The notes beneath the pieces are model-generated. The model was not told the origin of the DNA. It searched no databases and saw only the letters and a list, made by a program, of their open reading frames with translations. 50,557 nt of DNA, taken from the IMG/VR virus record IMGVR_UViG_3300020477_000041, positions 1 through 50,557 of that record. One strand, given 5' to 3'. The stretch is from a virus. Positions 3,708-35,713 of this stretch are shown here, in pieces. Position numbers and translations under genes: made by a program. Every line of letters starts with the position of its first letter. The first letter of the stretch is position 1.

Positions 3708-4223
3708 GTGATTAATCTTGAAGACGATCCTTTTAGATCAAACCCTATTCCCGGTCAATCTTTAACATCAGAACCGGGTAAGCTTCCTTATGAAAAACCT
3801 CCTATGTACGCAAATACAATGGAAGCTTTTCAATCTATAAAATCTTCTTTATATAGAAGTAGGGAATCTGCTGAAGAATTAGCTGAGATTATAAATTCAG
3901 GAATATCTTGTGAAACGCTTGCATCTTCAATCGTTATAAGTAGTTTTATGAAAGGAATGTTTAATCCTGATGTTGCTGAATTGATAAAGCCATTTGTAGC
4001 TCTTGAAATATATAAGATAGCTGAGAGAGTTGGTGTTACTAATATAATTTTATTTAATAAACCTTTAGAAGATAAAGTTTATGATAATAGAAATGTGTTA
4101 GATCAGTTTAAAATGTCAATAGGACATGAAAGCTCAATAGAGGATAAGGAAATTAACGCTCTTATAGAAAAATCTTTAAGTAAAGAACATACTGATGGTT
4201 TTATTAGTAAAGGAGAAGTGTAA
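3708..4223 (+). CDS. Hypothetical protein in virion block (171 aa)
   Basis: The start is a GTG preceded by TTGGAG 8 bases upstream; no ATG fits as well. The first 40 residues are Pro-rich and probably disordered, followed by a mostly helical domain (EAFQSIKSSLYRSRESAEELAEII) with hydrophobic helices at about 63-85. The stop TAA overlaps the ATG of the following 1063-aa gene by one base, indicating translational coupling with it. I do not recognise a family; a chaperone or minor component for the next large virion protein is possible but not shown. Confidence 0.5.
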   Translation: MINLEDDPFRSNPIPGQSLTSEPGKLPYEKPPMYANTMEAFQSIKSSLYRSRESAEELAEIINSGISCETLASSIVISSFMKGMFNPDVAELIKPFVALEIYKIAERVGVTNIILFNKPLEDKVYDNRNVLDQFKMSIGHESSIEDKEINALIEKSLSKEHTDGFISKGEV

Positions 4224-18995: not shown

Positions 18996-19024
18996 TTGAC
19001 AAGACCCGTTTCAGCGTGTATAAT
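18996..19024 (+). promoter_or_regulatory. Consensus sigma70 promoter upstream of ssb
   Basis: TTGACA at 18996-19001 and TATAAT at 19019-19024, exactly 17 bases apart, both perfect. They lie in the short gap between polymerase and ssb, with the ssb ATG 34 bases beyond the -10 box. It should give a strong separate transcript for ssb and what follows. Confidence 0.85.
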
Positions 19025-31349: not shown

Positions 31350-31383
31350 AACTTCCCCTTACTACAGTCTCCCTCCCAAACTT

Positions 31384-31413
31384 AGCCCGGCATGTTCGCC
31401 GGGTTCTTTTTTT
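31384..31413 (+). terminator. Rho-independent terminator closing the accessory block
   Basis: AGCCCGGC (31384-31391) pairs with GCCGGGTT (31398-31405), one G-T pair, loop ATGTTC, followed by CTTTTTTT. Confidence 0.85.
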
Positions 31414-31826
31414 GCCTGATAGGCTGTGCTGGCTGGTGATATATCCGCAAGGTGCTGGTTTGATTGCATAAGGCTTTATTGGTGGTGTGTTCTTGGTAGT
31501 GCGCCACCCCGCCCCAGACAGTGCTTGTTTTCAAACTTCATAATTTTGTTGTCAGTATAAACAAATCATGCCTGCGTGCATCTGCGTGCGTATAAGAGCT
31601 GTATTGTGTGGAAAGCTTGGCATTCTCGCTATATAGACTATCAAGATTTATCGCCGATGACTTTATGTCAATTTTGTTGAACAAAATGAGAACAAACTAG
31701 GCTGGGGAGGGATGGGCCACTGGGGGGGCTCCGTATACTTATATACATAACCAAGAATTTTATTATAATTTCAAAGAGATACATGTAAAAATGCTTATAA
31801 ACTACTATCAAGCCTCTACTCAGAGC

Positions 31827-31846
31827 TAATTAGTACTAATTAGTAT
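31827..31846. repeat. Tandem 10-bp palindromic repeat, iteron-like
   Basis: CTAATTAGTA occurs twice in a row. The block contains the perfect palindrome TACTAATTAGTA. AT-rich tandem palindromes of this type bind replication initiators or repressors, but no partner is known here. Confidence 0.6.
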
Positions 31847-31987
31847 ACCTTGTATGATATGTATATACTACCTCCGCGCAGGAGTACCTCCTATTATACA
31901 CCTGAAATAGCATCTTGTCAAGTAAAAAATGCACTAAAGTTAATTTTTTTTATTTCTTTATGTAAAATCATCACACTCCTCCCCCCT

Positions 31988-32011
31988 CCTTCCATTACTA
32001 GGACATATTTT
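31988..32011 (+). repeat. Copy 2 of 24-nt intergenic element
   Basis: CCTTCCATTACTAGGAC then ATATTTT, 23 of 24 identical to 15555-15578. Here it is 135 bases upstream of the late promoter and follows a long pyrimidine run, as the first copy does. Confidence 0.7.
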
Positions 32012-32145
32012 ATTTTCTCTCTCTCTGTGTGTTAAAATCTACAAAATGTTAGAAAATACGTAAGATTTAGCTTGTTAAAGCATTACTATCTTTTCTTTTA
32101 TAATCAACAACTTATAAAAAATATTAACTTTTATTTATTTTTTAC

Positions 32146-32174
32146 TTGACAAAGTGCTAAATCATTGTTATAAT
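32146..32174 (+). promoter_or_regulatory. Perfect sigma70 promoter with extended -10
   Basis: TTGACA (32146-32151), 17-base spacer, TATAAT (32169-32174), preceded by TGT, giving an extended -10. It is the strongest-looking promoter in the window and should drive the packaging and structural genes. It overlaps the ATG at 32173, so that ATG cannot be the start of the following gene. Confidence 0.85.
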
Positions 32175-32295: not shown

Positions 32296-32703
32296 ATGGA
32301 GATTATCATTTTTAATTTTTTTACAACTTTCACAAAAAGGATAATTTTATTTTTATTTTTATCTTGTGTTATTATGTTAGCTACCAACACTGTAGCTGCT
32401 GAAAGTTGGAAGAAAAAGGATATCATACACTCCAGCGTTGTGTGTTTAAATGAAGAGACAATTCTTGAAGTAGCACGACACGACTCTGAAAGCTTAGAAG
32501 GCACTGTATCTTTTATACGAAGAATGATTATAGAAGGACGGTGTGTGTCCTTTATGCAACCTGTAGAATTTCAAGTTGACGATACTATTCTTAATTACAC
32601 AGATTATTCTAAAAATAAAAGTGCAGTGCTACGTCTCAATCATCCTTATTCCGACAACAACCCATTTGGATTTGTAATTGCTTTGCATAAGCCAAGCGTA
32701 TGA
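32296..32703 (+). CDS. Small secreted or periplasmic protein (135 aa)
   Basis: I place the start at ATG 32296, after a 115-base leader that includes a CA-repeat; no strong ribosome site is visible, so the start is uncertain (TTG 32248 is an option). Residues about 14-33 (KRIILFLFLSCVIMLATNTVAA) are a signal peptide with a plausible cleavage at AxA before ESW. The mature part (about 100 residues) is mixed alpha/beta with two Cys, perhaps a disulfide. As first gene after the strong promoter it is made early and in quantity. No family recognised; superinfection exclusion or envelope action are guesses. Confidence 0.5.
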   Translation: MEIIIFNFFTTFTKRIILFLFLSCVIMLATNTVAAESWKKKDIIHSSVVCLNEETILEVARHDSESLEGTVSFIRRMIIEGRCVSFMQPVEFQVDDTILNYTDYSKNKSAVLRLNHPYSDNNPFGFVIALHKPSV

Positions 32704-32880
32704 ATGAAAGAGCTAGATTCTTTATTGGAAATGGTTATACGTATGGCATCTAAAGCGTGTAAGAATCCTTATTGTAATTGCGATGGATGCAAAGGATGTG
32801 ACTGTACTTATGTTTGTGTTAACGAAACTTGCAACTGCAACAAAGAATCAAAAGACCTTAATTCAACAAACGATGGCTAG
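32704..32880 (+). CDS. Metallothionein-like Cys-rich protein (58 aa)
   Basis: ATG 32704 gives 58 aa; a shorter version starts at ATG 32743 (45 aa). Residues 19-45 contain nine Cys in the order C-x4-C-x-C-x2-C-x2-C-x-C-x3-C-x4-C-x-C (Cys 19, 24, 26, 29, 32, 34, 38, 43, 45), with CDGCKGCDC in the centre and Lys/Asn/Gly between. The repeated CxC and CxxC motifs are the defining feature of metallothioneins, which bind Zn, Cu or Cd through thiolates. The stop (TAG) lies within the ATGGCTAG that starts the next gene, so the two are coupled. The next gene is a zinc-ribbon protein. Confidence 0.65.
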   Translation: MKELDSLLEMVIRMASKACKNPYCNCDGCKGCDCTYVCVNETCNCNKESKDLNSTNDG

Positions 32881-33034
32881 TAACGATAACAATTCGTATC
32901 AACACGACGATGGATTTGACACTAAAGAATTTCAACAGTGTACAAAATGTGAGTACATTCTTTATTTAGAAGATGTAGAAAAAAACCTTTGTCCTATGTG
33001 TGGACACGAAATAGTTTCAGAAGTATGGAGATAA
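32873..33034 (+). CDS. Zinc-ribbon protein (53 aa)
   Basis: Starts at ATG 32873, overlapping the metallothionein-like stop. It has an acidic N-terminus (about 18 residues) then QCTKCEYILYLEDVEKNLCPMCGHEI, a CxxC-x14-CxxC zinc ribbon. Small zinc ribbons bind nucleic acid or proteins. Together with the preceding gene this is a two-gene metal-binding unit directly upstream of terminase. An ORF opening further upstream at 32783 is not needed. Confidence 0.7.
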   Translation: MASNDNNSYQHDDGFDTKEFQQCTKCEYILYLEDVEKNLCPMCGHEIVSEVWR

Positions 33035-33076: not shown

Positions 33077-33517
33077 GTGTCTGGTAAAGCAATAGCTGGT
33101 ACACCATTTCGTACTGATCCAAAGCGTAAGCTTACAGAGAAGCAAGCAAGCTTCTTAGACGCTTTGTTTGAAAATGGTGGAAAGATAAGCGAAGCCATGC
33201 GTACAGCAGGATATAACACATCCAGATCAAAGCTTATGCAGTCTATGCGAGAAGAGATAGCAGCACGTACAAAGGACTATCTGGCTGTAAATGGCGTTAA
33301 AGCAGCAACAAGAATAGTAGAAGGCTTGGACGCTGATGGCACTACACCGCTGAACCAGATGGACATGCGTATGAAGGCTGCTGAGTCTATTTTAGACCGT
33401 ATTGGTGTGTCAAAGAAACAAACACAGGAGATTACAGGACAGGTCGTACATGGTGTTGTGTTGCTTCCTGCTAAAAATGAACTTAAAGACGTTACCTTAG
33501 AGGGGGAGACAATATAA
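33077..33517 (+). CDS. terS: Terminase small subunit
   Basis: 146 aa, GTG start 33077 with TTGGAAAT before it. KLTEKQASFLDALFENGGKISEAMRTAGYNTSRSK carries a helix-turn-helix of the small-terminase type (about residues 17-52) that recognises phage DNA; a helical multimerisation region and a C-terminal beta tail follow (VVHGVVLLPAKNELKDVTLEGE). Position one small gene cluster before the large subunit is standard. Confidence 0.75.
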   Translation: MSGKAIAGTPFRTDPKRKLTEKQASFLDALFENGGKISEAMRTAGYNTSRSKLMQSMREEIAARTKDYLAVNGVKAATRIVEGLDADGTTPLNQMDMRMKAAESILDRIGVSKKQTQEITGQVVHGVVLLPAKNELKDVTLEGETI

Positions 33518-33816
33518 TGCCTAGTAATATGACAGTAGCAGAAGCTTACGCGGTTAAACAAGAAATGTTGGATGCTAATAATGGTAAACCACCAACGAAT
33601 AGTCCAGAATATGACGCTGCTATGAAAATACTTAACGAAGCAAAAGAAGATCAAATTAAACACGCTAAAGATTTTGTAGCTACTGCTGATCCTAAAATGA
33701 AAAAAGGCGGTAAAGTAAAAAAGTACATGGGTGGCGGTAAAGTCTACACAACCCACAACAAACGCTACGCACACGGTGGCAAAGTATCAGGTAGAAAGGC
33801 TAAATACAATGGATGA
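33517..33816 (+). CDS. Small Gly/Lys-rich protein with GGGKV motifs (99 aa)
   Basis: Starts overlapping the terS stop by one base. The first 60 residues are helical (TVAEAYAVKQEMLDANN). The C-terminus is a string of KKGGKVKKYMGGGKVYT and YAHGGKV motifs, basic and Gly-rich. The same motif occurs in the next gene and in other proteins of this block. Probably a nucleic acid- or virion-binding accessory of packaging. No domain name. Confidence 0.5.
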   Translation: MPSNMTVAEAYAVKQEMLDANNGKPPTNSPEYDAAMKILNEAKEDQIKHAKDFVATADPKMKKGGKVKKYMGGGKVYTTHNKRYAHGGKVSGRKAKYNG

Positions 33817-34057
33817 AGAAGAAGAATTAGACAAAAAAATAAAATTTTTCAGAAAACAAAAAGCCCGCTCTAAAAAAATGTCGTTGGAACCAACGATACC
33901 GGGAGATACGTTGCTGACACCCTACCAATATGATGGATTGATTCGAGAGTTATTAAACAAGAAAAATAAAAAGAAAAAGAAAAATAAAGGTTTTCAAGGA
34001 ATGAAAGGCGGCGGTAAGGTCTACACGAACAACACTCGTCGCGCTAACTACAAATAG
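33809..34057 (+). CDS. Small basic protein with C-terminal KGGGKVYT motif (82 aa)
   Basis: ATG 33809 overlaps the previous gene by 8 bases; a frame opening at 33731 is not needed. The product is highly basic, with poly-Lys (KNKKKKKNKGF) and the C-terminal GMKGGGKVYTNNTRR, which mirrors the end of the previous protein (MGGGKVYTTHNKR). The shared tail suggests a common docking partner, possibly terminase or capsid. It ends 6 bases before the large terminase. Confidence 0.5.
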   Translation: MDEEEELDKKIKFFRKQKARSKKMSLEPTIPGDTLLTPYQYDGLIRELLNKKNKKKKKNKGFQGMKGGGKVYTNNTRRANYK

Positions 34058-34063
34058 TACATC

Positions 34064-35713
34064 ATGGCTCAAAGAGGAAGACCAAAGCTTAAACCCGGCG
34101 AAAAGGGCAAATATCAACAATCAAGCGTTCAAAAGAAGCGAGTTGAAGCAAGGCGTAATATTAAAAGACAAAAGGAAAAAATAGAACGCGCTGAAGCAAG
34201 CCTTAAAAAACTTACTAAAAAGAAAGAAAATATAAAAACTGCTGATAAAGTATCAAAACAAGGTGGAGTTATAGACGATGATTTCATTAACAATTTACCC
34301 GCTTCTGTACGACAAAACCTTGAGGACGACACAGAACTCGTATTCAGACCTAACGAAGGTCCACAAACCGACTTTCTTGCAGCGCCGGAAAAAGAAGTTC
34401 TTTACGGAGGTGCTGCGGGCGGTGGCAAATCATACGCGATGCTTGTTGATCTCCTGCGCTATGCAAATAATCCTAATCACAAAGCACTTCTACTGCGAAG
34501 AACACTTGCCGAACTCACGGAACTAATCGAACAATCAAGAAAACTTTATCCTAAAGCATTTAACGGAGCAGTATTCAGAGAATCAAAGTCTACGTGGATT
34601 TTCCCAAGCGGTGCAACAGCAATGTTTAGCTACGTAGACAAAGACCACGACGTAACACGATATCAAGGACAAGCGTTCACTTGGATTGGTGTTGACGAAC
34701 TAGGACACTATCCTACACCGTATGTGTGGACGTATCTACGAAGTCGCCTAAGAACCACAGACCCAACTATAGAGACTTATATGAGGGCATCAGCTAACCC
34801 CGGTGGTCAAGGTGGATGGTGGATTAAAAAGATGTTTATTGATCCTGTACCGCCAAACACACCGTTCTGGGCGATTGATCCTGAAACAGGAAGAACTTTA
34901 AGAAATCCACGAACTCAAAATCCGTTGTTTCAAAGAAAGTTTATTCCTGCAAGATTAACGGACAACCCTTATCTAGCGGAGTCAGGCGAATATGAATCAA
35001 TGCTTCTCAGTCTTCCTGAAGTTGAAAGACGTAGGCTACTTGAAGGAGATTGGGATGTTGCGGAAGGGGCAGCATTTTATGAGTTCGATAGATCAGTACA
35101 TGTTGTTGAACCATTTGAAGTTCCCTTTAGTTGGCCCCGTATACGAGCAATGGATTACGGTTACAGTAGCCCTAGTTGTGTCTTATGGGGCGCGGTAGAT
35201 TGGGACGGGACAATATGGGTGTATAGAGAATTGTACGAAAAAGGACATACAGGAGAAAGCCTAGCAAGTCTTATTCTTGCTTTAGAATACGACGATCCTC
35301 CTATGACGCAAAATGTTCTTGACGGGTCTTGTTGGTCAAATCACGGCACAGGACCAAGTATTGCTGAAACAATGATCCGCAACGGTGCAAGATTTATACC
35401 AGCGGATAGAAATCGCATGGCCGGAAAAATCGAACTTCACAGAAGACTTGATGAAGACAAGCCACTAAGTTCTAAAGGTGGTAACGGTTTGCGTATCTTT
35501 AGCACTTGTACAAATCTCATACGCACTCTTCCCACTTTACCTTTGTCTCGCACTAATTCAGAGGACGTAGACACTAAAGCAGAGGATCATGCGTATGATG
35601 CCCTACGATACATGTGCATGACGCGCCAGACCGGCTATGCAACCAGTTCGATGTTCAACTCTATTAAACAACAACAATCTTACGAACCCTCTAACCAAGT
35701 GTTTGGATATTAA
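34064..35713 (+). CDS. terL: Terminase large subunit
   Basis: 549 aa ATP-driven DNA packaging motor. After a basic, coiled N-terminal extension (about 1-70), the ATPase has Walker A GGAAGGGKS (115-123) and Walker B FTWIGVDE (Asp211-Glu212). The nuclease domain starts near AMDYGYSSPSCVLWGAVDWDG, with the first catalytic Asp in DYGYS, a further Asp in NVLDGSCW and the last acidic pair in EDHAYDALRYM. Length and motifs are those of a large terminase. The long basic N-terminus is unusual and could bind DNA or the small KGGGKV proteins. Confidence 0.93.
   Translation: MAQRGRPKLKPGEKGKYQQSSVQKKRVEARRNIKRQKEKIERAEASLKKLTKKKENIKTADKVSKQGGVIDDDFINNLPASVRQNLEDDTELVFRPNEGPQTDFLAAPEKEVLYGGAAGGGKSYAMLVDLLRYANNPNHKALLLRRTLAELTELIEQSRKLYPKAFNGAVFRESKSTWIFPSGATAMFSYVDKDHDVTRYQGQAFTWIGVDELGHYPTPYVWTYLRSRLRTTDPTIETYMRASANPGGQGGWWIKKMFIDPVPPNTPFWAIDPETGRTLRNPRTQNPLFQRKFIPARLTDNPYLAESGEYESMLLSLPEVERRRLLEGDWDVAEGAAFYEFDRSVHVVEPFEVPFSWPRIRAMDYGYSSPSCVLWGAVDWDGTIWVYRELYEKGHTGESLASLILALEYDDPPMTQNVLDGSCWSNHGTGPSIAETMIRNGARFIPADRNRMAGKIELHRRLDEDKPLSSKGGNGLRIFSTCTNLIRTLPTLPLSRTNSEDVDTKAEDHAYDALRYMCMTRQTGYATSSMFNSIKQQQSYEPSNQVFGY

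Follow-up and report, generated by a model that had tools for sequence, protein, structure and literature searches.

Is a short, cysteine-packed reading frame just ahead of a phage terminase region a real gene, and if so, does it encode a metallothionein? The question is raised by a marine bacterial virus, IMG/VR virus record IMGVR_UViG_3300020477_000041, of which we analysed a stretch of 50,557 nucleotides, hereafter the window. An earlier note on this DNA had proposed a phage-borne metallothionein-like protein, coupled to a zinc-ribbon protein in a two-gene metal-handling unit.

A cysteine-rich frame and its neighbours

The translation of the frame, MKELDSLLEMVIRMASKACKNPYCNCDGCKGCDCTYVCVNETCNCNKESKDLNSTNDG, contains nine cysteines in 27 residues, with exactly the spacing that had been claimed (C-x4-C-x-C-x2-C-x2-C-x-C-x3-C-x4-C-x-C), together with two tyrosines and no histidine. 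The 58-aa form starts at an ATG that abuts the upstream stop (TGA-ATG), an arrangement also kept in the relatives L001, L010, L011 and L169, found in other IMG/VR contigs. The copies in L002 and L003 begin at MEKSC, three bases past the upstream stop; the 13-residue N-terminal extension of the window protein would therefore seem dispensable, and the inner ATG may be a start. Since the longer start is conserved too, both candidates stand, giving a protein of 4.8 kDa with 20% cysteine (45 aa) or of 6.4 kDa with 16% cysteine (58 aa).

Table 1. Features around the cysteine-rich gene, with a further promoter-like site (window coordinates).
Feature	Position	Strand	Remarks
Sigma-70-type promoter	18996..19024	+	12/12, perfect match
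Divergent sigma-70-type promoter	31893..31921	-	perfect (12/12); counterparts in relatives
Sigma-70-type promoter, TTGACA-17-TATAAT	32146..32174	+	12/12, perfect match; TG before -10
135-aa protein, apparent signal peptide (by eye)	32296..32703	+	directly upstream of metallothionein-like gene; same place in relatives
Metallothionein-like gene	32704..32880	+	58 aa; alternative 45 aa from ATG 32743; Cys core 32758-32838
Zinc-ribbon-like protein, 53 aa, CxxC-x13-CxxC	32873..33034	+	Cys invariant in relatives; sub-cut-off Pfam zinc-ribbon matches
Terminase small subunit (TerS)	33077..33517	+	phrog_51, E 5e-6
Terminase large subunit (TerL)	34064..35713	+	profile and sequence matches

The 9-Cys pattern is not a product of chance, since dinucleotide shuffling of the whole window, repeated 200 times, never produced it. 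The 6-Cys core is likewise found in 0/200 shuffles, and none of them contains an open segment of at least 40 residues with nine cysteines in 27. Two more cysteine-dense segments of the real window do not have the 9-Cys pattern, and look like low-complexity frames.

We then compared codons between the window copy and those of L001, L010, L011 and L002. These differ at 11 to 12 synonymous and 8 to 10 nonsynonymous positions, with a dN/dS of approximately 0.08 to 0.10, a rough value as dS is near saturation. The cysteine codons vary only between TGT and TGC. The frame is thus under purifying selection. An 83-aa frame that overlaps it was rejected as a gene upstream of 32873, because in that part the relatives differ from the window by only 1 to 3 synonymous changes and by 9 to 16 nonsynonymous ones; there, the longer frame is non-coding and spurious, as had been suspected. 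Cysteine spacing is conserved in the relatives, and no frameshift occurs in the six full-length relatives from the lineage of the window, two points on which the earlier note had made its proposal depend. On sequence evidence, the cysteine-packed frame is a real gene.

The rightward promoter at 32146 precedes the genes for the signal-peptide protein (no Pfam match), the metallothionein-like protein, the zinc ribbon and TerS. The gene had been described as lying downstream of the strongest promoter, directly ahead of terminase. The promoter does have a perfect score, but shares it with two other sites in the window, and the gene lies just ahead of TerS, while TerL comes further on. For both this promoter and the divergent one, counterparts are present in all examined relatives whose sequence extends far enough.

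Relatives in two phage lineages

The cysteine array is found again in 55 further IMG/VR contigs, which belong to two phage lineages. A search of IMG/VR with a DNA version of C-x-N-P-x-C-x-C-x2-C-x2-C-x-C matched 52 stretches, 50 of which encode a genuine protein (5 in the lineage of the window and 45 in a second group), the other two (L094 and L137) being chance matches. Profile searches add L158, L159, L160 and L166 to the second group, for 49 contigs, and L169 joins the lineage of the window, for 7 contigs in all. When relaxed, cysteine-only patterns were used, almost all of the matches listed were low-complexity frames; IMG/VR may hold more divergent members of the family.

In the lineage of the window, all nine cysteines are kept (L001, L010, L011, L002, L003/L134 and L169), and the gene sits between the apparent signal-peptide protein and TerS, with L169 stopping short of TerS. 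A 23-aa mini form with seven cysteines occupies the same slot in L035, a relative with 82% TerS identity.

The second group shares a Pam1-like structural module, and carries the gene within a head/tail cluster. Its head protein has 53-58% identity to those of Phage DSL-LC04 (whose annotation includes a Pam1 adaptor protein), Planktothrix phages and Roseobacter phage CRP-901. On one side of the gene lies a 51-55-aa ORF ending in GQGYGAARKGP, on the other a 92-aa putative membrane protein, and a putative adaptor gene is found downstream. Five members (L014, L160, L166, L161 and L104) have a 9-Cys spacing identical to that of the window, and the remaining ones an 8-Cys form, in which the seventh cysteine is missing. 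An ATG is preceded by a Shine-Dalgarno sequence in L097 (a perfect AAGGAGGTGATC) and L104 (AGGAGG). Most other members lack an ATG, and TTG is their probable start. The remark that usual ORF calling would miss so short a gene is apt for these, but overstated for the window copy.

Across the family, an asparagine between the cysteines is invariant in the alignment and a glycine nearly so. Cysteine makes up 20-24% of the residues (30% in the mini form), with 0 to 2 aromatics, at most one histidine and a net charge of 0 to -6.

As for the 53-aa neighbour, its ORF overlaps the metallothionein-like gene, as reported, by 8 nt; the spacing is CxxC-x13-CxxC and not the x14 first given. Its Pfam zinc-ribbon matches are all below cut-off, and the core of its AF2 model (pLDDT approximately 80) has as best PDB match the AccD zinc ribbon, a weak one (E 0.45). 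It follows the gene in 7/7 contigs of the window lineage, and the sequence search for it found it only beside this gene. In the 49 Pam1-like contigs there is no zinc ribbon beside the gene (in four, the only trace is a weak CxxC-type match in an unrelated frame), and L035 has none next to it either. The zinc ribbon is therefore not a required partner, and the two-gene unit holds for the window lineage, but not for the Pam1-like group or L035.

Likeness to metallothioneins and proposed role

The general metallothionein class is marked by low mass, a cysteine content of about 15-35%, conserved CxC/CxxC arrays, and few aromatics and histidines, all of which we find in the window protein, and by the binding of several d10 metal ions through thiolates, which we predict for it. 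There is no match to it in Pfam, PHROG, NCBIfam or PDB families; the PDB search returned no known metallothionein structure, and its matches to receptor ectodomains are due to chance (E 0.15). Composition, conserved cysteine spacing and a virus-only family speak for the proposed phage-borne metallothionein-like protein, with no known family profile to match it: judged by sequence, it is metallothionein-like in composition and outside every described metallothionein family tested.

BmtA, SmtA and PmtA (Pfam Metallothio_Pro type) are also small and cysteine-rich, with CxC motifs, and are located in the bacterial cytosol, presumably like the phage protein. Unlike these, the window protein has no Metallothio_Pro match in Pfam (E up to 1) or NCBIfam, and five relatives have none in Pfam (E up to 5). 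Histidine is common in bacterial metallothioneins (PMC10612145), whereas the phage proteins have 0 or 1. MymT, the mycobacterial copper metallothionein, is another short, cysteine-rich prokaryotic protein, but its type was not matched in the Pfam and NCBIfam scans. The vertebrate beta domain (Zn3Cys9) has nine cysteines in about 30 residues, few aromatics and little histidine. It resembles the phage protein in cysteine count and composition, a likeness that serves as orientation and not as a test, but the order of the cysteines differs and no homology is detectable. Among other cysteine-rich types, an Fe-S ferredoxin was ruled out, as no CxxCxxCxxxC is present in the family, and a disulfide-rich secreted peptide by the lack of an evident signal peptide (by eye), the odd number of cysteines and the CxC motifs.

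A scan of 84,980 bacterial and archaeal genomes with the same motif, which requires the N-P pair and would miss cellular relatives without it, gave 14 matches, all by chance and none a credible gene, in contrast to BmtA, SmtA and PmtA. An alignment-based search of prokaryotic genome contigs found no relative, and neither did tblastn and blastn against INPHARED phages, a weak result since BLAST masks low-complexity sequence. The Cys-core pattern is absent from seven whole genomes of isolated phages (HTVC033P, HTVC103P, HTVC115P, CRP-738, HMO-2011, CRP-901 and DSL-LC04), and profile searches of five of these found nothing. As these seven isolated relatives do without the gene, it is dispensable in general. 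With relatives in two phage groups and none found in about 85,000 prokaryotic genomes, this is probably a virus-only, metallothionein-like protein, with metal binding predicted.

Our preferred reading, to which we give a probability of about 0.7, is a small cytosolic, phage-only protein of metallothionein-like type, whose thiolate clusters would take up zinc or copper and buffer the metal of the infected cell. The thiolates would gather d10 metals into one small cluster; if nine-Cys metallothionein domains are a guide, nine cysteines would accommodate about three Zn(II) or several Cu(I). Once produced during infection, the protein would buffer zinc or copper and hold down the level of free metal as host homeostasis breaks down. 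It may also keep zinc available to phage proteins, the zinc domain of the primase among them, an idea whose only ground is that the phage encodes zinc proteins; the DnaJ-type zinc insert of HMO-2011-type DNA polymerases is not among these (see below). Such buffering may serve zinc supply, detoxification or redox defence, and the uses suggested in the earlier note (seizure of host zinc or copper, protection of a metal-dependent phage enzyme, supply of zinc to phage proteins) are likewise candidates. In the window lineage, a strong host-type promoter probably drives one transcript for this protein, the signal-peptide protein, the zinc ribbon and TerS. AF2 predicts hardly any secondary structure and no stable fold (pLDDT 53), which fits a peptide that is ordered by metal, although low confidence is weak evidence.

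The conserved asparagine and glycine could, against metal buffering, reflect a specific binding partner. The protein might bind nucleic acid or a host protein in the manner of a zinc knuckle, for example in anti-defence, which would agree with these residues and with the adjoining zinc ribbon of one lineage. We consider this quite unlikely, given the neutral to acidic charge, the few aromatics, and an array of 8-9 cysteines in CxC/CxxC, or seven in the L035 mini form, that is unlike a single zinc-knuckle site. Another option is mainly a thiol redox buffer or scavenger, shielding phage DNA synthesis from oxidative stress, with metal binding secondary. The window encodes a ribonucleotide reductase, an enzyme that needs a thiol reductant, and the protein combines high cysteine density with no catalytic motif. 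There is also a precedent in the bacterial metallothionein PmtA, linked to oxidative stress (PMC11237414). A pure thiol buffer, however, would not need invariant cysteine spacing, and here it is exact between distant lineages, which makes this option unlikely.

The location of the Pam1-like copy among head/tail genes suggests late expression, which argues somewhat against an early seizure of host metal; the strong promoter of the window is compatible with early or late timing. A small metal protein associated with assembly, produced alongside the late genes and possibly packaged in the virion, would suit this location (beside the GQGYGAARKGP-tailed ORF, the membrane protein and the adaptor) and that of the window copy just ahead of TerS. 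Still, the neighbours differ between the two lineages and the window copy lies behind a host-type promoter, and we find this explanation very unlikely.

Returning to metal buffering, we propose only tentatively, at somewhat less than even odds, a virus-only metallothionein family that is swapped between two distinct podophage lineages, is absent from cells and gives phages control over cellular zinc or copper during infection. If true, such a virus-specific family would allow phage control of host metal homeostasis to be tested directly with a peptide of some 45 residues. Zinc and other trace metals are in short supply in the open ocean, and metallothioneins from prokaryotic viruses may already have been considered elsewhere. 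We found no description of phages with their own metallothioneins in the literature searched, which covers subscription papers and preprints poorly and leaves novelty unproven.

Genomic surroundings

The TerL of the window is closest to those of the Pelagibacter phages HTVC103P, HTVC104P and HTVC115P (48-49%). DNA polymerases of HMO-2011-type phages are reported to contain a partial DnaJ zinc insert with CXXCXGXG repeats (PMC9038755). This motif is absent from all plus-strand open segments of at least 50 residues in the window, and since the insert is missing from the polymerase region, we place the window, by sequence, in a separate lineage, distantly related to HMO-2011-type phages.

Both divergent promoters are housed in a region of approximately 800 bp (31350-32170) with little coding potential, which has counterparts even in relatives whose TerS identity is as low as 82%. 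No obvious minus-strand gene lies ahead of the leftward promoter. The 51.7-kb contig of L169 (IMGVR_UViG_3300030329_001756) has an end at 4147, past the zinc ribbon and short of TerS, which may be a genome end or the result of a permuted cut.

In TerS relatives without the metallothionein-like gene, a different small Met/Gly-rich ORF occupies its slot. Such contigs carry an Hsp20-like gene (260-709 in L018, Pfam HSP20, E 9e-13, with equivalents in L019-L036) ahead of the signal-peptide or lipoprotein-like gene.

Lastly, small ORFs between TerS and TerL have a common C-terminal tail, GGKVYxxHNKRYAHGGKVSGRKAKYNG, and unrelated N-termini. They are found in the window (33517-33816 and 33731-34057), in L001 (1126-1467), in L002 (2362-3239), and in L010 and L011. 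Within the Pam1-like group, L098, L104, L107 and L117 have a shared ORF tail of their own, AVGGPVKPAWMRNR. Shared C-terminal tails of this kind look like a transferable targeting or packaging tag.
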